DNA of 33,439 bases from Acetobacteraceae bacterium (GCA_023511555.1 JAIMBG010000005.1:1-33439), one strand, 5' to 3'. Positions 24,696-32,848 are shown, counted from the first letter of the stretch. The notes: a model not told the origin generated them from the sequence alone. Translations and numbers: made by a program.

Positions 24696-25409
24696 CTACA
24701 GTCCCAGGTAGGCCCGGCGAACCTGGGGATGGCCGAGGAGCTCCTCCGATCCTCCCTCCAGCACCACGCGGCCCTGGCTCAGCACGTAGCCGCGGCGGGC
24801 CAGCGAGAGAGCCCGGGCCACGTGCTGCTCGGCGAGCAGAAGCCCCACCCCCGACGGGCCTACCTCGGCAAGGCACCGGTAGATGCGGGCCAGCACCAGG
24901 GGAGCCAGCCCGAAGGAAGGCTCGTCCAACAGCAGCAGCCGAGGCTCGCCGACCAGCCCCCGGGCGATGGCCAGCATCCTCTGCTCCCCGCCGGACAGCG
25001 TCCCTGCCAGGGCGCGGCGCCGGCGGCCCAACACCGGGAACAGCTCCATCACCCGGTCGAGGTTGCGCCTCCGGTGGGCTCGGGCCCGCGGCGCCATGGC
25101 CCCCAGCTCCAGGTTCTCCTGGACGGTCATGAAGGGAAAGACGGGGTGGCCCTCGGGGACATAGCCCAGCCCCATCTCCAGCCGGCGATGGGGAGGGAGG
25201 CCGTCGAGCCGTTGGCCCTCAAAGCTGATGGTGCCGCCGATAAGCGGCACTAGCCCGGCCACGGCGCGGAGCAGGGTGCTCTTCCCCGCGCCGTTGGAGC
25301 CCACCAGCGCCACAGTCTCCCCCGTGCCCACCCTGAGGCTCACGCCGCAAACGACCTCCACCGGGCCGTAGCCGGCCCTGAGCAGCTCAACCTCCAGCAT
25401 AGGCCTCAC
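24696..25409 (-). CDS. livF: Branched-chain amino acid ABC transporter ATP-binding protein LivF
   Basis: VGSNGAGKSTLLRAVAGLVPLIGGTISFEGQRLDGLPPHRRLEMGLGYVPEGHPVFPFMTVQENLELGA; LSGGEQRMLAIARGLVGEPRLLLLDEPSFGLAPLV. Confidence 0.95.
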   Translation of the reverse strand: MRPMLEVELLRAGYGPVEVVCGVSLRVGTGETVALVGSNGAGKSTLLRAVAGLVPLIGGTISFEGQRLDGLPPHRRLEMGLGYVPEGHPVFPFMTVQENLELGAMAPRARAHRRRNLDRVMELFPVLGRRRRALAGTLSGGEQRMLAIARGLVGEPRLLLLDEPSFGLAPLVLARIYRCLAEVGPSGVGLLLAEQHVARALSLARRGYVLSQGRVVLEGGSEELLGHPQVRRAYLGL

Positions 25410-26121
25410 CCAGGTAGGTCCGGATCACCGCCTGGTCCCGCCCCACCCGGGCGGGCGGACCCTCGCAGAGCTTGCACCCGCTGTCCAGCACCACCAGCCG
25501 GTCACACATGGCCATCACCGCCTCCATCACGTGCTCCACCAGGACCAGCGTGAGCCCGTCCTGGCGCAGCTCCAGGAGAAGGCCCATGGCGTCCTTCACC
25601 TCGCGTGGGGTGAGCCCCGCCATGAGCTCGTCGAGCAGGAGCAGCCGGGGGCCGGTGGCGAGCGCCCGGGCCAGCTCCAGGCGCTTTCTGTCGGCGGCAC
25701 AGAGCTCGCCGGCAGTGGCGCCGGCGGCATCGGCCAGGCCCACCCTCTGCAGGCAGGCGTGGGCGGCTTCCCGGGCCTGGCGCACGGCCAGGGGGCCCAG
25801 CCGGGCGAACGCCCCCACCATCACGTTCTCGAGCACGCTGAGCGAGGCGAGAGGTCGGGGGTACTGGAAGGTGCGGGCCAACCCCAGCCGGCAGACGCGG
25901 TGGGCCGGCCAGCCAGTGATGTCGCTGCCCAGGAAGGTGACCCGCCCCCGGGTGGGGCGGGTCCCGCCGGCAAGCAGGGCCAGCAGCGTGGACTTCCCCG
26001 CCCCGTTGGGCCCGATGATGCCCACGACCTCCCCCTGCGCCACACGGAGACTTACGCCCTTGAGCGCCTGGACCGCGCCGTAGCTCTTATGCAGCTCACG
26101 GCCTTCCAGCACCCGCCTCAC
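25387..26121 (-). CDS. livG: Branched-chain amino acid ABC transporter ATP-binding protein LivG
   Basis: IGPNGAGKSTLLALLAGGTRPTRGRVTFLGSDITGWPAHRVCRLGLARTFQYPRPLASLSVLENVMVGA; LLLDELMAGLTPREV. Confidence 0.95.
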   Translation of the reverse strand: MRRVLEGRELHKSYGAVQALKGVSLRVAQGEVVGIIGPNGAGKSTLLALLAGGTRPTRGRVTFLGSDITGWPAHRVCRLGLARTFQYPRPLASLSVLENVMVGAFARLGPLAVRQAREAAHACLQRVGLADAAGATAGELCAADRKRLELARALATGPRLLLLDELMAGLTPREVKDAMGLLLELRQDGLTLVLVEHVMEAVMAMCDRLVVLDSGCKLCEGPPARVGRDQAVIRTYLGEAYAGG

Positions 26122-27067
26122 CCCCTGCCGCCCGCCTGCGGGCGGCGAGAAGCCCGCAAAACCCCTGGGGCACGAGCAGGACCGTCAACACCAGCAGAAG
26201 CCCATAGGCCAGGCCGTGGGCCCGGCCCAGCAGGACCCTCATGGCTTCGGCAACCAGCACCACCCCGCCCGCCCCGGCGGGGGGGCCCCAGAGAGCCCCC
26301 CAGCCGCCCAGCAGCGCCCCCAGCGCGGCGGGTATGGAGACGTCCGCCAGGGAAAAGACGCTGCCGGGGTCAATGTAGGAGGTCTGGGCGCAGAACAGGG
26401 CCCCAGCCAGCCCGCAAAGGCCGCCGCTCAGGGAGAGCGCCCACAGCTTGCTCTTCAGCGCCGGCACCCCCGCCGCCTCCGCGGCGTCCTCGTCCTCTCT
26501 AAGGGCCCTGAGCCGGTAGCCCAGCCGGGCGCCGCGCACCAGGGCGGAGGTCAGGGTGGCGAGCCCGAACAGCGCCAGCCCCAGCGCGCAGGCCGCCCGC
26601 TGGCCGCCGGAGAGCGGCGGCAGCAGGATGCCGACTGCCCCTCCCGTGATCCCCCGCAGATTCAGGGCGCACAGCCGCACCACCTCGGCCGCAGCCAGGG
26701 TGCTGAGAACGAAGTAGGCCCCGCGGAGGCGGAAGCACAGCCAGCCCACGGGTAGGGCCAGGACCGCCCCCGCCAGCCCGGCCAGCGCCGTCCCGGCTGC
26801 AGCTCCCAGTCCGTTGGTCCAGGCCAGGGCGGCTGCGTACGCGCCTGCCCCAAAGAACGCGGCGTGGCCCAGGGAGAACTGCCCGGCATACCCGCCCACC
26901 AGGTTCCAGGCCTGGCTCATCGCCGCCCAGAGCCAGAAGGTGGCGAACAGGTGGCTCAGGTAGGGCGAAGGTGAAACCAGGGGCAGCACCGCTAGCGCCG
27001 CCCCCAGGGCGAGACCTGCCGCGCCCAGGGCCTTCGAGGCCAGTGCGCCGGCGCGTCTTCCCGTCAT
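26096..27067 (-). CDS. livM: Branched-chain amino acid ABC transporter permease LivM
   Basis: ATG 27067 MTGRRAGALASKALG...WNLVGGYAGQFSLGHAAFFGAGAYAAA; TGGAVGILLPP; polytopic. Confidence 0.92.
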   Translation of the reverse strand: MTGRRAGALASKALGAAGLALGAALAVLPLVSPSPYLSHLFATFWLWAAMSQAWNLVGGYAGQFSLGHAAFFGAGAYAAALAWTNGLGAAAGTALAGLAGAVLALPVGWLCFRLRGAYFVLSTLAAAEVVRLCALNLRGITGGAVGILLPPLSGGQRAACALGLALFGLATLTSALVRGARLGYRLRALREDEDAAEAAGVPALKSKLWALSLSGGLCGLAGALFCAQTSYIDPGSVFSLADVSIPAALGALLGGWGALWGPPAGAGGVVLVAEAMRVLLGRAHGLAYGLLLVLTVLLVPQGFCGLLAARRRAAGGEAGAGRP

Positions 27068-27242
27068 AGCCGTCCAGGGCGGCGGCCCCCGCCGCGCTGC
27101 TGGGTGCGCGCCGACCCCCCTTTCCCTCTCCCCCAACGGCCTCACCCCCTCCACGAACCTCTGCTGCCACGCCGTCCCTTCCTCTGCCTCCCCCGCCGCT
27201 GAACCTTCCCGCCTCCGCCCCAGGGCGGCCCCGTCGGCGGGG

Positions 27243-28127
27243 CTACACCCGGGAACGCCCCACCAGACCCGAGGGCCTCAGCACCAGGACCAGGAGGAAA
27301 GCCAGGAGACCTATGGCGTCCTTCCAGGCCGCAGACAGGTAGACCGCCCCCAGGCTCTCCGCCGCCCCCAGCAGCAACCCCCCCAGGGCCGCCCCCACGC
27401 AGCTCCCCATGCCGCCCAGCACGACCACCACGAAGGCTTTGCCGGTGAGCAGCCCCCCGATGCCGGGGTGGAGGTAGTAGACCGGAAGCAGGAGGCAGCC
27501 GGCGGCTCCCGCCAGCGCAGTCCCCAGTCCGAAGGTCAGGGACGAGACCCGGCCGGTGTCTATCCCTGCTGCCAGCGCCGCCTCCCGGTGCTGAGCCGTC
27601 GCCCTTATCGATCGGCCGGCGGCGGTAAGAAACAGCCAGGCCCACACCCCCAAAGTAAAGACACAGGCCAGGGCAAACGCCAGGAGGTACGGGACGCTTA
27701 CCCGCAGCGGCCCGGCCTTCAACACCAGGTCGCTGTATGCGGTGTACACCGCCAGGTAGTCGCCGGAGAAGATGAGGAGGGCGGCGTTGGACAGCACCAG
27801 GCCCAGACCCAGCGTCAAGAGCACCTGGCTCTGCTCCCGGGACCGCTCCAGCGGCCGGACCACCAGGCGGTACAGCCCCCTTCCCGCCCAAAACAGGGGC
27901 GGAAGGCAGATCAGGGCGGAGAGGCAGGGGTCGACCCCCGCCACGGTGAACAGGCCCCACCCCAGGTACATCCCCACCATCACCAGTTCCCCGTGACAGA
28001 GGTTGATGAACCTCATCACCCCGAACACCAGGGCCATGCCGGTTCCGACCAGGGCGTACACCCCGCCTACCAGCACCCCGTTTATGAGGGCCTCAGTGAA
28101 GACCAGCGTCGCCTGCAGCTTCCCCAC
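27243..28127 (-). CDS. livH: Branched-chain amino acid ABC transporter permease LivH
   Basis: TEALINGVLVGGVYALVGTGMALVFGVMRFINLCHGELVMVGMY; ATAQHREAALAAGIDTGRVSSLTFGLGTALAGAAGCLLLP. Confidence 0.95.
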   Translation of the reverse strand: MGKLQATLVFTEALINGVLVGGVYALVGTGMALVFGVMRFINLCHGELVMVGMYLGWGLFTVAGVDPCLSALICLPPLFWAGRGLYRLVVRPLERSREQSQVLLTLGLGLVLSNAALLIFSGDYLAVYTAYSDLVLKAGPLRVSVPYLLAFALACVFTLGVWAWLFLTAAGRSIRATAQHREAALAAGIDTGRVSSLTFGLGTALAGAAGCLLLPVYYLHPGIGGLLTGKAFVVVVLGGMGSCVGAALGGLLLGAAESLGAVYLSAAWKDAIGLLAFLLVLVLRPSGLVGRSRV

Positions 28128-28157: not shown

Positions 28158-29204
28158 TCACCCGGCCAGCCCCCGCTGTGCGCGGGCCACGATCTCCAGG
28201 GCGCGCTCTTCCAAATCGGCGATGTCGTAGAGGCGCTTTTGGACGCGCCTTAAGATCTCGGCCGCTGGATCGCCCCTGGCGGCTTTGAAGAACAGGGCCC
28301 GGACCACCGACCAGCTCTGGGCCAGGGGCTCGAGCACCCGGCCGGCCTCGACCAGCCCTGGAAGCCTAAGGGTCTCACCGGCGTAGACGAGGAACTGACT
28401 GTGCCAGGCGCGCTTCTCACCAACGGCCATAGTCTGGTTATACAAGGCATCCAGACGGCCCGCCGGAGGGGGTGCCTCGACGAGCCTTCGGGCAAACCCC
28501 CGGATTCCCGAAAGCCCCACTCCCAGGCGCACCGCTCCCCAGCGCTCCAGCGACGCCCGCATCAGCCGGCTGAGCGCGGGAGGCCTCGGCCCCACCATGG
28601 CCCTCAGGTTCCGGTCCAGGGCCCGGGCCACGAGCGAGGCCAGTCCGGGCGCCGGGCCAGAGGGGGGGTCGATCTCTATCCACTTGTTGTCCGGGCGGTA
28701 CCCGTCGCCTCCCCCGGCCCGGGCCTCCGCCAGGACCGAAAAGGGGAGTGGCCCTCGGTACTGGAACAGCCCATCGGCCACGTAGACCTCGCGGCTTGCA
28801 GGATCATAGCCGTTCACGATGAGGAAGTGGAGGCTGTGCCTTATCGCGTACCCCGAGGAGTGGGGCAGGTAGAAGGGATCGACCAACACCACCGCCGGAA
28901 GCTGCCGATCCAGCAGAGCCTTCACCCCTCTCCAGGCCCGCTCTGGGTTCCGGGTGGCCCTCACTCTGAGCTTCACCCCGTGCTCCGCCCAGAAGTCCTC
29001 CTCCGGCCGCCTCCAGGAGGAAAGCAGCAGGTCGGCCCCCTCGGCCTCCGGGATGCAGTAGTGGAAAAAGGCCCAGTCTTTGCCATACAGCAGACACAGC
29101 GGCTCCAGCCCCAGGTACTTCAGCACCGCGGCTACGCACTCGGTCTCGCAGGACAGGTAGTCACTGGTGTACGGCACCACGTCTCTCAGGCTGGGACGGG
29201 ACAA
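28158..29204 (-). CDS. BtrH_N/C39-like protein, copy A2 (butirosin BtrH-like N-terminal fold plus DUF4872-like C-terminal region, tentative)
   Basis: TTG 29204 after GGGGGGTGG: SRPSLRDVVPYTSDYLSCETECVAAVLKYLGLEPLCLLYGKDWAFFHY...SGYAIRHSLHFLIVNGYDPASREVYVADGLFQYRGPLPFSVLAEAR...; strongly similar to 29977-31035. Confidence 0.7.
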   Translation of the reverse strand: MSRPSLRDVVPYTSDYLSCETECVAAVLKYLGLEPLCLLYGKDWAFFHYCIPEAEGADLLLSSWRRPEEDFWAEHGVKLRVRATRNPERAWRGVKALLDRQLPAVVLVDPFYLPHSSGYAIRHSLHFLIVNGYDPASREVYVADGLFQYRGPLPFSVLAEARAGGGDGYRPDNKWIEIDPPSGPAPGLASLVARALDRNLRAMVGPRPPALSRLMRASLERWGAVRLGVGLSGIRGFARRLVEAPPPAGRLDALYNQTMAVGEKRAWHSQFLVYAGETLRLPGLVEAGRVLEPLAQSWSVVRALFFKAARGDPAAEILRRVQKRLYDIADLEERALEIVARAQRGLAG

Positions 29205-29938
29205 GGGACCACCCCCCTGGACGGACCGGCCGGGCACCCGGGGGGGCAGCACGGGTCCGGTCTCGGATCCAGCCCCCCGAGGGGCCGTCCCCGCCGGCTC
29301 AGGCTCCCGACTGCGCGTCCCCGGGGAGGCCGGATGAGCGTCAGGGCCAGGACGTGCATCAGTATGTTCTCGGGAAGCACCAGGGCGATCAGCGCCCGGT
29401 CAGGGTCCAGCACGATGAACTGCACCCACAGGCGGGGCTGGATGCCGGGCACCTGTCTCCCCGGGGCGTGGCAGTGGGTCGCAGCGTAAGCCGCCAGCTC
29501 CCCGAACTGGGGCTCAGGCAGTATCCAGCGGGTGAGACCCAGAGTCCTCGAAGCCTCCGGTCCTGCGTCGAAGCGCAGCCAGACCTGCTCCTTGTAGCTA
29601 CCCATTTCCGAGGCGCCCAACACCGCCAGGGCACAGTACCGGCCAGGGGGCACCTCCAACCGCTGGCCGTCGCACCTGGTGTTGTCCGGCTCCCCGTCGC
29701 AGAACGCGGGCAGCCATAGGGGCACGCCCCCCACGACCAACGGCCGGGGGAGCGAACCAAGTTCCTCAGCGGGGAAAGAGCTGTGGCCCAGGGCAGCGAA
29801 CGGCCGCCGGTCAAAGGAGGCGCAGGCGTGGTTAAGGAATGGACGTAGATCCACCCCCAGGTAGCGGCCTCGGCTGAAGCAGCCCGCCCCATCATCCGGC
29901 AAGCTCCAACCCTGAGTGGCCCTATGCCCTGCTGGCAC
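29186..29938 (-). CDS. Beta-sandwich-like protein, copy B2; no signal peptide evident
   Basis: RGRYLGVDLRPFLNHACASFDRRPFAALGHSSFPAEELGSLPRPLVVGGVPLWLPAFCDGEPDNTRCDGQRLEVPPGRYCALAVLGASEMGSYKEQVWLRF...LTRWILPEPQFGE...LPENILMHVLALTL; strongly similar to 31017-31691; GTG start at 29938 tentative. Confidence 0.7.
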   Translation of the reverse strand: MPAGHRATQGWSLPDDGAGCFSRGRYLGVDLRPFLNHACASFDRRPFAALGHSSFPAEELGSLPRPLVVGGVPLWLPAFCDGEPDNTRCDGQRLEVPPGRYCALAVLGASEMGSYKEQVWLRFDAGPEASRTLGLTRWILPEPQFGELAAYAATHCHAPGRQVPGIQPRLWVQFIVLDPDRALIALVLPENILMHVLALTLIRPPRGRAVGSLSRRGRPLGGLDPRPDPCCPPGCPAGPSRGVVPCPVPA

Positions 29939-29976
29939 TGCCCCACTCCCCCTTCCTCCTGGCAGGCCGTCCCCCG

Positions 29977-31035
29977 TCAGCGGCCGGCCTCCCTCAGCTC
30001 CCGGGCCGCTAGCTGTACTAGCCCCAACGCCCTCTCCTCCGTGTCGGCGATGTCCAGCAGGCGTCCCTCGATACGCCCCTGGATGTCTGAGACCTGCTGG
30101 GCGTGGGCCGCCTTGAAGATCAGGTTCCTCACCACCATCCAGCCCTGGGCCAGGGGCGCCAGCACCCGGCCCGCCTCGACCAGCGGGCTCAGCCCCAGCT
30201 CCTTCCCGGCGTAGGCCAGGAACTGCGAGTGCCACATGCGCTTTTCGCAGAACGCCACCAACTGGTTGAACAGGGACATCAGCACCTTCTGGCTAGGCAG
30301 GGGGCAGCCCCCCATCATGCGCGCGAAGGCCCTGAGGCCGCCGAGGCCGGCCCCCACCAGGCGTGCCCGCCGCCGGTCCAGGGGCTCCCGCACCGCCCTT
30401 GTCAGCGCCGGGGGGCGGGAGCCCAGCATGGCCCGAAGGTTGCGTCGGAGCGCACCTGCCACCAGGGCCCTGAGGTCGGGGCGGGGGCCGGTGGCAGGCT
30501 CGATCTCCAGCCACTTGTTGGCCGGGTCGCAGCCATCCCCCGCCCGGCCCCGCACCTCGGCCAGGACAGAGTAAGGGAGGGCGCCCACGAAGTTGAACAG
30601 CCCGTCGGCCACGTACACCTCCCGCTTCTCCGGGTCGTAGCCGTTTACGATGAGGAAGTGGAGCGAGTGCCGTACGCCGTACCCCGAGGCCTGGGGAAGG
30701 TAGTAGGTGTTGGCCAGGACCACCGCCGGCCGCCCGCGGTCGAGGAGGTTCTGCACCCCCTTCCATGCCCGCCGGGCATCCCGGGTGCGCCTTACCTTGA
30801 GCCGGATGCCGTGCTCCGCCCTGAAGTCCTCGTCTGGCTTCCTCCAGGAGGCCAGCACGAAGTGCTCGCCGTCGGGCCCCGGCGCCTGCCAGTGGTAGAA
30901 CGCCCAGTCCTTGCCGTAAAGCAGTTCCAGCGGGCCCTGGCCCAGGTGCTGGAGCACCCCGGCGACGCACTGGGTCTCGCAGGAGATGTAGTCGCTTATG
31001 TAGGGGGCGACCCGCCTCAGGTCCTCGCCGGGCAT
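29977..31035 (-). CDS. BtrH_N/C39-like protein, copy A1
   Basis: ATG 31035 after GGAGGTGACACC: MPGEDLRRVAPYISDYISCETQCVAGVLQHLGQGPLELLYGKDWAFYHW...SGYGVRHSLHFLIVNGYDPEKREVYVADGLFNFVGALPYSVLAEVR...; overlaps the 3' end of B1. Confidence 0.75.
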   Translation of the reverse strand: MPGEDLRRVAPYISDYISCETQCVAGVLQHLGQGPLELLYGKDWAFYHWQAPGPDGEHFVLASWRKPDEDFRAEHGIRLKVRRTRDARRAWKGVQNLLDRGRPAVVLANTYYLPQASGYGVRHSLHFLIVNGYDPEKREVYVADGLFNFVGALPYSVLAEVRGRAGDGCDPANKWLEIEPATGPRPDLRALVAGALRRNLRAMLGSRPPALTRAVREPLDRRRARLVGAGLGGLRAFARMMGGCPLPSQKVLMSLFNQLVAFCEKRMWHSQFLAYAGKELGLSPLVEAGRVLAPLAQGWMVVRNLIFKAAHAQQVSDIQGRIEGRLLDIADTEERALGLVQLAARELREAGR

Positions 31036-31691
31036 GGTGTCACCTCCGGGGAGGCGCGCCCTGGGCAGCGGGACGGGCAGGGCCCGGGCGCCCGGGGCGG
31101 CACGATGAGGGTTAGCGCCAGGAAGTGAAGGAAGATGTTGTTGGGGAACACCACCGCCCTCAACCTCCGCGCCGGATCCACCACCAGGAGTTTGAGCCAC
31201 AGGCTGGCCTGCTGGCCAACCACCTGCGTCCCCGGCCCGTGGACGTGGGTCACGGTATAGGCCTGAGCCTCCCCGAACCTCGGCCTCCTGTCTGTCCAGC
31301 GGGTGAGAGCCAGCTCCCGGGCCTGCTCCGCCCCGCCCTCAAAGCGCAGGCGCATCTCCTCGACATAGCTTCCCATCTCCGCCACCCCGAGCAGTGCCAG
31401 GGCGCAGTAGCGGCCTGGGGGGACGCCCACCTTCTGCCCCTCGCACATCAGGTTGTCGGGCCTTCCCGGCAGGAACGGCGGAAGCCGCAGAGGGACCCCG
31501 TCCGCGATGAATGGCCGCGGGAGCGCCGCAAGCTCCTCGGCGGGAAAGGAGCAGAACCCCAGCGAGGCAAAGGTGTCCTGGTCAAAGGAGGCGCAACTGT
31601 GGTTGAGGTACGGGCTGAGATCCACCTCCCGGTACCTTCCCTGCCCCCAGGCCTCTTGCCTTGCGACCCGACCCGCCCTCACCGCCCCCAC
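31017..31691 (-). CDS. Beta-sandwich-like protein, copy B1
   Basis: QGRYREVDLSPYLNHSCASFDQDTFASLGFCSFPAEELAALPRPFIADGVPLRLPPFLPGRPDNLMCEGQKVGVPPGRYCALALLGVAEMGSYVEEMRLRF...LTRWTDRRPRFGE...FPNNIFLHFLALTL. Confidence 0.75.
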   Translation of the reverse strand: MGAVRAGRVARQEAWGQGRYREVDLSPYLNHSCASFDQDTFASLGFCSFPAEELAALPRPFIADGVPLRLPPFLPGRPDNLMCEGQKVGVPPGRYCALALLGVAEMGSYVEEMRLRFEGGAEQARELALTRWTDRRPRFGEAQAYTVTHVHGPGTQVVGQQASLWLKLLVVDPARRLRAVVFPNNIFLHFLALTLIVPPRAPGPCPSRCPGRASPEVTPCPART

Positions 31692-31712: not shown

Positions 31713-31828
31713 TCACCGCCCGGCCGGACGCTCCGACCAGGCCGGCACCGGGAACACGTATTCCTTTGAGGCGTATTCCCTCGGCCACACGGTCTCCAGC
31801 CTCCCACCCTGCCACTGCCCCAGCACCG
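31713..31828 (-). pseudogene. C-terminal tail resembling a LIV-type ABC substrate-binding protein (livJ-like), truncated by the junction
   Basis: ...VLGQWQGGRLETVWPREYASKEYVFPVPAWSERPAGR* resembles the QWQ.G....VWP.EYA....YP.P.W C-terminus of LIV-binding proteins, and it sits upstream of livHMGF. Confidence 0.6.
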
Positions 31829-31931
31829 TCCCGGCCCGGTTGACGAGGACGACCGCGCCGGGGAAAACTCCCCGCTCCACGGCCGCGGCGAGCTCTCTGT
31901 CTATCGGTGAAAAATCCATACCGGGTGTCAC
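31829..31931 (-). pseudogene. N-terminal fragment of a class C beta-lactamase-like serine hydrolase, truncated by the junction
   Basis: GTG 31931 / ATG 31919: MDFSPIDRELAAAVERGVFPGAVVLVNRAGTV..., typical N-terminal strand-helix of the family; start follows the LD-carboxypeptidase stop directly. Confidence 0.65.
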
Positions 31932-32848
31932 TCGACCGCAGGCTCAAGAAAAGTCAGGTCTCGGTTGACCGTATCAAGCCGGACACGGGCGCCTATGGGA
32001 AGGGCGAAATTATCTCCGCCGTGTCCGGCGGGCAGCCCAAATCCCACCGGGTACGCGTAGTCAGCAAAGATGTCGGTGAGGACCGACATCAGCAGGGCAG
32101 GGTCGTTGCTGTCCCCGAAGCAGCCGCCCATCTCGCCGAATACCACCCCGGCCACGTCGTCCAGTTTGCCCGCGTGCTTCAGCTGGGTCAACATGCGATC
32201 CACACGATACGGCTTTTCTCCCACGTCTTCAAGAAAGAGGATCGCGCCGCTGGTCTCCACGGCAAAAGCGGTCCCCAACGTGGCAACCAACAGGGATAAG
32301 CATCCGCCGACCAGCTGGCCTTCAGCGACCCCTTCACGGAGGGCGGTTGGGACGGGAAGGGAAGGTTCGCCGCGTCCTGTCGTCAAGAGATTCAGCAGGT
32401 GCGCCAGCGGGCGCGCGGAAAACCCCTTGGCGAACTCACCGGCCACCACCGGGCCGTGAAAGCAGACAAGGCCGGCACGCTGGAAGAAAGCGTTCAGCAG
32501 CAGGGTGACGTCACTAAACCCGAGAAATACCTTGGGGGTCCGGGCGAGCTGCGAGAAATCGAGCAGCGGCAGTAAGCGGCCTGAACCGTAACCGGCGCGG
32601 GAGCAAAAAATGCCGCGGACTGCAGGATCGTGGAACATGTCCATCAGCTCGGCGGCTCGTTCGCGGTCGGTCCCGGCAAGAAAGCGATGCCGGTTGAGCG
32701 CGCGGGCCCCCACCCGCACGCGAAACCCGAGGCGCTCGATGGCCTCGCAGCCGCGTCGCAGCGGCTCCGCTTCTACCGCAGCTGCGGGGGAGACGACCCC
32801 GGGCGCGTCCCCCGGGCGGGGGGGGGGGGGTTTCCGGGGGGGCGTCAT
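31928..32848 (-). CDS. S66 family LD-carboxypeptidase (MccF/LdcA-like)
   Basis: RPGDAPGVVSPAAAVEAEPLRRGCEAIERLGFRV; IFCSRAGYGSGRLLPLLDF; VFLGFSDVTLLLNAFFQRAGLVCFHGPVV; FLEDVGEKPYRVDRMLTQLKHAGKL; GLPAGHGGDNFALPIGARVRLD. Confidence 0.92.
   Translation of the reverse strand: MTPPRKPPPPRPGDAPGVVSPAAAVEAEPLRRGCEAIERLGFRVRVGARALNRHRFLAGTDRERAAELMDMFHDPAVRGIFCSRAGYGSGRLLPLLDFSQLARTPKVFLGFSDVTLLLNAFFQRAGLVCFHGPVVAGEFAKGFSARPLAHLLNLLTTGRGEPSLPVPTALREGVAEGQLVGGCLSLLVATLGTAFAVETSGAILFLEDVGEKPYRVDRMLTQLKHAGKLDDVAGVVFGEMGGCFGDSNDPALLMSVLTDIFADYAYPVGFGLPAGHGGDNFALPIGARVRLDTVNRDLTFLEPAVE

Follow-up and report, generated by a model that had tools for sequence, protein, structure and literature searches.

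Tandem gene pairs related to AziU3/AziU2 ahead of livHMGF in an Acetobacteraceae bacterium, probably a diverged branch of a known two-protein enzyme kind

The aziridine-forming complex of azinomycin biosynthesis consists of AziU3 and AziU2 (Azi29/Azi28; PDB 7WUW, 7WUX, 8GS1) and is noted for closing an aziridine ring enzymatically, which is unusual. Azinomycin is an antibiotic whose aziridine ring is DNA-reactive. Here we compare with this complex, and with other described enzymes, two tandem gene pairs, B1-A1 and B2-A2, that lie in a stretch of 33,439 nucleotides from an Acetobacteraceae bacterium (the window), which is the complete contig C21 of a 2.49 Mb draft genome (88.6% complete). They probably form a new, diverged branch of this known type of two-protein enzyme; they are duplicated, lie in unusual surroundings and probably carry out related chemistry. 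More specifically, we put at about 0.6 the probability that each B-A pair is a diverged heterodimer of the AziU2/AziU3 kind, a biosynthetic enzyme that uses a cysteine to transfer an acyl group to an amino substrate or to cyclise such a substrate.

Other described enzymes are related to the A chain. CcbD and LmbD (PDB 7YN1, 7YN2, 9DKR, 9DKS) are carrier-dependent amide synthases of lincosamide biosynthesis, and CcbD has a ping-pong, carrier-dependent mechanism that proceeds through its active-site cysteine (PMC12945683). CtaG (PDB 9QUZ and variants), the peptidyl transferase of closthioamide biosynthesis, is proposed to act between two carrier-bound substrates (PMC6772006), and its C11A, H128A and D144N variants point to a Cys-His-Asp set. 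BtrH (PF14399/PF16169) of butirosin biosynthesis is C39-like and is an acyl carrier protein (ACP):aminoglycoside acyltransferase (PMC10318531).

Homology of both chains to AziU3 and AziU2

The N-terminal domain of A belongs to the Pfam family of BtrH. A1 and A2 match BtrH_N (PF14399) with E-values of 3.5e-20 and 1.7e-18 (73 and 67.6 bits against a curated cut-off of 29.7), so the resemblance that a first-pass annotation of this DNA had noted for A is well founded. Its suggestion that the DUF4872 domain (PF16169) be looked for as well holds for A2, which lies above the cut-off (32.2 bits, E 1.1e-7), and narrowly fails for A1 (27.3 bits against 28), in which this half of BtrH is weak. We know of no B partner of BtrH. 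A profile of the five A proteins of this genome (two in the window and three described below) finds AziU3/Azi29 at E 1e-13 over positions 19–317, nearly its full length, and a wider A profile that includes Streptomyces proteins reaches AziU3 at E 7e-56.

The AlphaFold2 model of A1 is confident (mean pLDDT 85.5), and a Foldseek comparison of this model with the PDB gives AziU3 as the top match (7wuw_C, E 1e-13, TMq 0.72), followed by CtaG (E 2e-10) and CcbD (E 1e-9), all with E <1e-7; the matches include the three CtaG variants named above and CcbD C19S with its peptidyl carrier protein (PCP). The BtrH/C39-like fold anticipated in the first-pass annotation is thus found, with AziU3, at 21% identity to A1 in the fold alignment, as its closest solved representative. 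Residues C19, H126 and D144 are present in both A1 and A2 and are invariant among the genome's five A proteins, three from Streptomyces and two stand-alone BtrH_N proteins, and Cys, His and Asp occupy the aligned positions in AziU3. The catalytic Cys and His are alike in CcbD, whereas its triad is Cys-His-Glu (PMC12945683) and that of window A is Cys-His-Asp; the solved CcbD complexes also lack a B partner, and CcbD has a dedicated PCP. CtaG likewise differs in that its PDB entries name no B subunit.

The B chain is also homologous to the azinomycin complex. Pfam and NCBIfam searches gave no family for B1, while phmmer with the single B1 sequence finds AziU2/Azi28 at E 2e-15 and a profile of the genome's five B proteins does so at E 9e-30; B2 matches the B profile at E 4e-86. 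The homology to AziU2 rules out that B is an orphan family. Both window chains are therefore homologous over nearly their full length to AziU3/AziU2, and the sequences of both chains, the adjacent genes with B first and the fold of A place the pairs in the AziU3/AziU2-type group. The first-pass annotation had presented A and B as a candidate for an undescribed system; it was right about the BtrH likeness of A, but a solved relative exists for both chains, and that of B had been missed.

Outside this genome, B matches in the class and phylum samples (154 and 399 genomes) are nearly all domains of secreted proteins and have no A beside them. Such B-only matches include tails of GH38 mannosidases as well as small exported proteins encoded next to sugar ABC transporters; those on plasmids of Streptomyces are in SGNH, GH3 and lectin proteins. 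B is a sandwich fold used in different settings, and B alone must not be taken as a sign of the two-protein system. The distribution suggests that sandwiches of the carbohydrate-binding type are the source of the B fold or share it. As separate observations, B-like sandwich domains, some in tandem, lie uncovered by Pfam at the ends of secreted proteins at L037 6034–10545 (GH38 mannosidase), L031 8968–10413 (exported) and L087 1372–3540 (SGNH hydrolase), and at L039 8177–8900 a truncated B fragment comes after a fragment of a phosphopantetheinyl transferase (PPTase)-like gene; these are probably the remains of a decayed cluster.

Recurrence and duplication of the B-A unit

Adjacent B and A genes are found well beyond the window. 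Contig C78 of the same genome holds three further B-A pairs, with 4 nt overlaps, that the first-pass annotation did not include. They lie in a cluster with ketosynthase-like genes (ketosynthase/chain-length-factor-like pairs), an ACP, a FabA-like dehydratase, three B12-radical-SAM enzymes and several 2-hydroxyacyl-CoA-dehydratase-like (HGD-D) proteins with BcrAD-type ATPases. This gene combination (L006 1–20000, L030) matched no known cluster in this analysis. The third C78 A gene (L006 7853–8944, minus strand) has a frame change near its 3′ end, either a sequencing error or a real frameshift.

In homologous clusters of the azinomycin/vazabitide type on Streptomyces plasmids, B is directly followed by A, as in the window, in the company of LysW, transketolase halves and DegT, and one such cluster has a sulfotransferase beside the pair. 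Plasmids of Mesorhizobium huakuii also carry B then A, one of them with radical-SAM, DegT, transketolase and sulfatase-like genes nearby, and a plasmid of Alkalihalophilus pseudofirmus has B then A beside ACP and polyketide synthase-type genes. Stand-alone B and A genes in these three genera overlap by 4–11 nt in most cases (4–11 nt in Streptomyces). In genome G375, from the same phylum, A and B are fused into one protein of 519 aa (L041 7366–8925, plus strand), surrounded by AcpS-type PPTase, MetK-like and radical-SAM genes. Carrier-protein machinery thus adjoins pairs outside the window as ACP (C78, Alkalihalophilus), AcpS-type PPTase (G375) and LysW (Streptomyces). The 40 class relatives scanned gave no B-A pair. 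Among the 399 phylum and 154 class genomes, the matches outside the bacterium's own genome had no A beside them in the stretches of DNA that were inspected, with the G375 fusion as the one exception, and profile scans of genome contigs found no B relative and three A relatives, all without B. The co-occurrence of A and B in other genomes, which the first-pass annotation had proposed looking for, is therefore real, and because the adjacency recurs and a natural fusion exists, it is almost certain that A and B act jointly.

The view that the B-A pair was duplicated as a unit and has since diverged is confirmed. A1 and A2 are 60% identical across 347 aa (E 7e-145), B1 and B2 are 59% identical across 185 aa (E 6e-79), and the DNA of the two units can be aligned at ~69–70%. 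The overlaps, given as about 19 nt in the first-pass annotation, are exactly 19 nt in both B1-A1 and B2-A2. Differences fall mostly at third codon positions, both between A1 and A2 (0.48 against 0.29/0.24) and between B1 and B2 (0.49 against 0.30/0.23), so both window copies look like coding genes maintained by selection. In trees of A and of B, whose deep branches are weak, the window copies cluster together and the C78 copies cluster together; thus the window pairs are not a recent copy of those on C78, and the two sets expanded separately. The divergence of the two window copies (~60%) suggests that they serve two related substrates or two steps.

These same features bear on whether the tandem pairs could instead be relics, fortuitously expressed along with the liv genes, of a larger biosynthetic cluster that was split by rearrangement. 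The C78 pairs do lie within a large cluster, and no other biosynthetic genes are present at the window locus. Both window copies nevertheless retain open frames, the triad, their overlaps and third-position-biased divergence, their GC content is like that of their neighbours, and the trees speak against a recent C78 origin. We regard relics as highly improbable.

Acyl transfer, ring closure and the catalytic triad

Because A resembles CcbD and carrier-protein genes stand beside pairs outside the window, we infer an acyl-transfer mechanism for the AziU2/AziU3-kind heterodimer. A would be its catalytic subunit; it has the papain/C39 fold, belongs to the BtrH-CtaG-CcbD superfamily and retains the whole Cys-His-Asp triad. 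A carrier protein or coenzyme A would supply an acyl or aminoacyl group that C19 would be positioned to hold as a thioester, H126 and D144 would activate C19 and the incoming amine, and the acyl or aminoacyl group would then be passed from A to the amine, as in CcbD. Alternatively, the enzyme may close a ring in the manner of AziU3/AziU2, with the substrate activated differently. B, a beta-sandwich partner with no known catalytic motif, would probably complete the active site or pocket, or hold the substrate or the amine partner.

Several observations weigh against this proposal. The surroundings of the window pairs show neither a carrier protein nor any other biosynthetic gene. AziU3 has the same triad, yet its reaction is described as the closing of an aziridine on a substrate that carries sulfate (PMC9570651), and so the triad is no proof of acyl transfer. 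Mesorhizobium A has neither the Cys nor the His of the triad, which shows that these residues are dispensable for the existence of the family. Finally, the B1 model is poor (pLDDT 46), and the B fold is assigned from sequence.

The homology of both chains to AziU3/AziU2, the sole solved pair of such architecture found here, would also fit true aziridine (or azetidine-like) synthases that act on an amino alcohol ester by eliminating its sulfate or phosphate. Against this, none of the genome's own five pairs, those of the window included, has the A motifs LP[FY]RPA and PPx[FY] or the B motif N.W.N, which AziU3/AziU2 shares with the pairs of Streptomyces and Mesorhizobium. Azinomycin aziridine formation proceeds via a sulfated intermediate (PMC9570651), and neither LysW (TIGR01206) nor either of two sulfotransferase families (Sulfotransfer_1 and _3; PF00685, PF13469) was found in this 88.6% complete genome, nor was the transketolase/DegT set seen beside its pairs. 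The tandem arrangement ahead of livHMGF is a further difference from AziU3/AziU2. We consider this reading distinctly unlikely, and judged from sequence, a specific aziridine-synthase function of the genome's own pairs is not supported.

A further proposal would treat the pairs as a new AziU3/AziU2-type subfamily outside the azinomycin/vazabitide group, in which the triad would serve carrier-dependent acyl transfer or small-ring closure, and whose window members would have moved from biosynthetic clusters into a transporter operon, there to act on a transported molecule. We think this unlikely.

The locus and its transporter genes

The minus-strand order at the locus is S66 LD-carboxypeptidase, B1, A1, B2, A2, livH, livM, livG, livF (Table 1), with a 3-deoxy-D-arabino-heptulosonate 7-phosphate (DAHP) synthase gene preceding that of the carboxypeptidase. 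The first-pass annotation had the order correct from B1 to livF, but the gene it read upstream of B1 as the tail of livJ matches Peptidase_S66; a livJ at this position is ruled out. The S66 gene and B1 are possibly on one transcript. Between them lies an open reading frame of 68 aa (31713–31919, minus strand) that by eye recalls the beginning of a serine hydrolase; a Pfam search of it gave no match, hence no identity is claimed.

Table 1 Genes at and around the two B-A pairs, numbered from the first nucleotide of the window
Feature	Position	Strand	Remarks
S66 LD-carboxypeptidase	31928–32848	-	Peptidase_S66 E 1e-35, S66C E 3e-37; 236 nt ahead of B1
B1, AziU2-like beta-sandwich subunit, copy 1	31017–31691	-	224 aa; GTG start
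A1, AziU3/BtrH-like papain-fold subunit, copy 1	29977–31035	-	352 aa; ATG at 31035, inside B1
B2, AziU2-like subunit, copy 2	29186–29938	-	250 aa including a divergent C-terminal tail; GTG start
A2, AziU3/BtrH-like subunit, copy 2	28158–29204	-	348 aa; TTG at 29204, inside B2
livH-type permease	27243–28127	-	BPD_transp_2 E 1.4e-28; 30 nt past A2
livM-type permease	26096–27154	-	BPD_transp_2 E 1.1e-29
livG-type ATPase	25387–26121	-	Read from the translation alone
livF-type ATPase	24696–25409	-	Read from the translation alone

The position of the pairs raises the question of a functional tie to the LIV transporter, in which they would modify an imported or exported peptide, amino acid or cell-wall fragment. 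The pairs and the liv genes share a strand, A2 lies close to livH, the B-A-B-A array sits where several relatives have livJ directly ahead of livH, and the S66 gene lies upstream; this peptidase and the M28 peptidase close by would suit such a role. Two LivJ-type genes occur in the genome, on contigs C92 and C153, and neither adjoins the window livHMGF; one LivJ-type gene is on a 3 kb contig without liv partners, and the LivJ gene on C92, which has no livH of its own, could serve the window transporter, which counts against the tie. Moreover, the livH neighbourhoods read in relatives contain no B-A pair (livJ adjoins livH in several), and across the 40 and 154 class and 399 phylum genomes the link with liv genes is seen on this contig alone, while the other pairs lie in biosynthetic clusters. 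A recurring LIV-linked system is thus not supported, and a liv association confined to this contig is among the outcomes that the first-pass annotation had itself named as refuting its hypothesis. Its idea that the transporter imports a product of A and B is unsupported, and we find a functional tie doubtful.

More widely, the AziU3/AziU2-type heterodimer appears as a module of several bacterial lineages, with five diverged pairs in this genome, the Alkalihalophilus and Mesorhizobium pairs and a one-chain fusion, and such pairs stand repeatedly beside B12-radical-SAM and carrier-protein genes. The fold of A ties AziU3 to the acyl and peptidyl transferases BtrH, CcbD and CtaG, and it is a testable idea that aziridine synthases were derived from cysteine acyltransferases through recruitment of a beta-sandwich partner. 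The pairs listed here are new genes that may be mined, with unusual amide bonds or small reactive rings as the products to look for.

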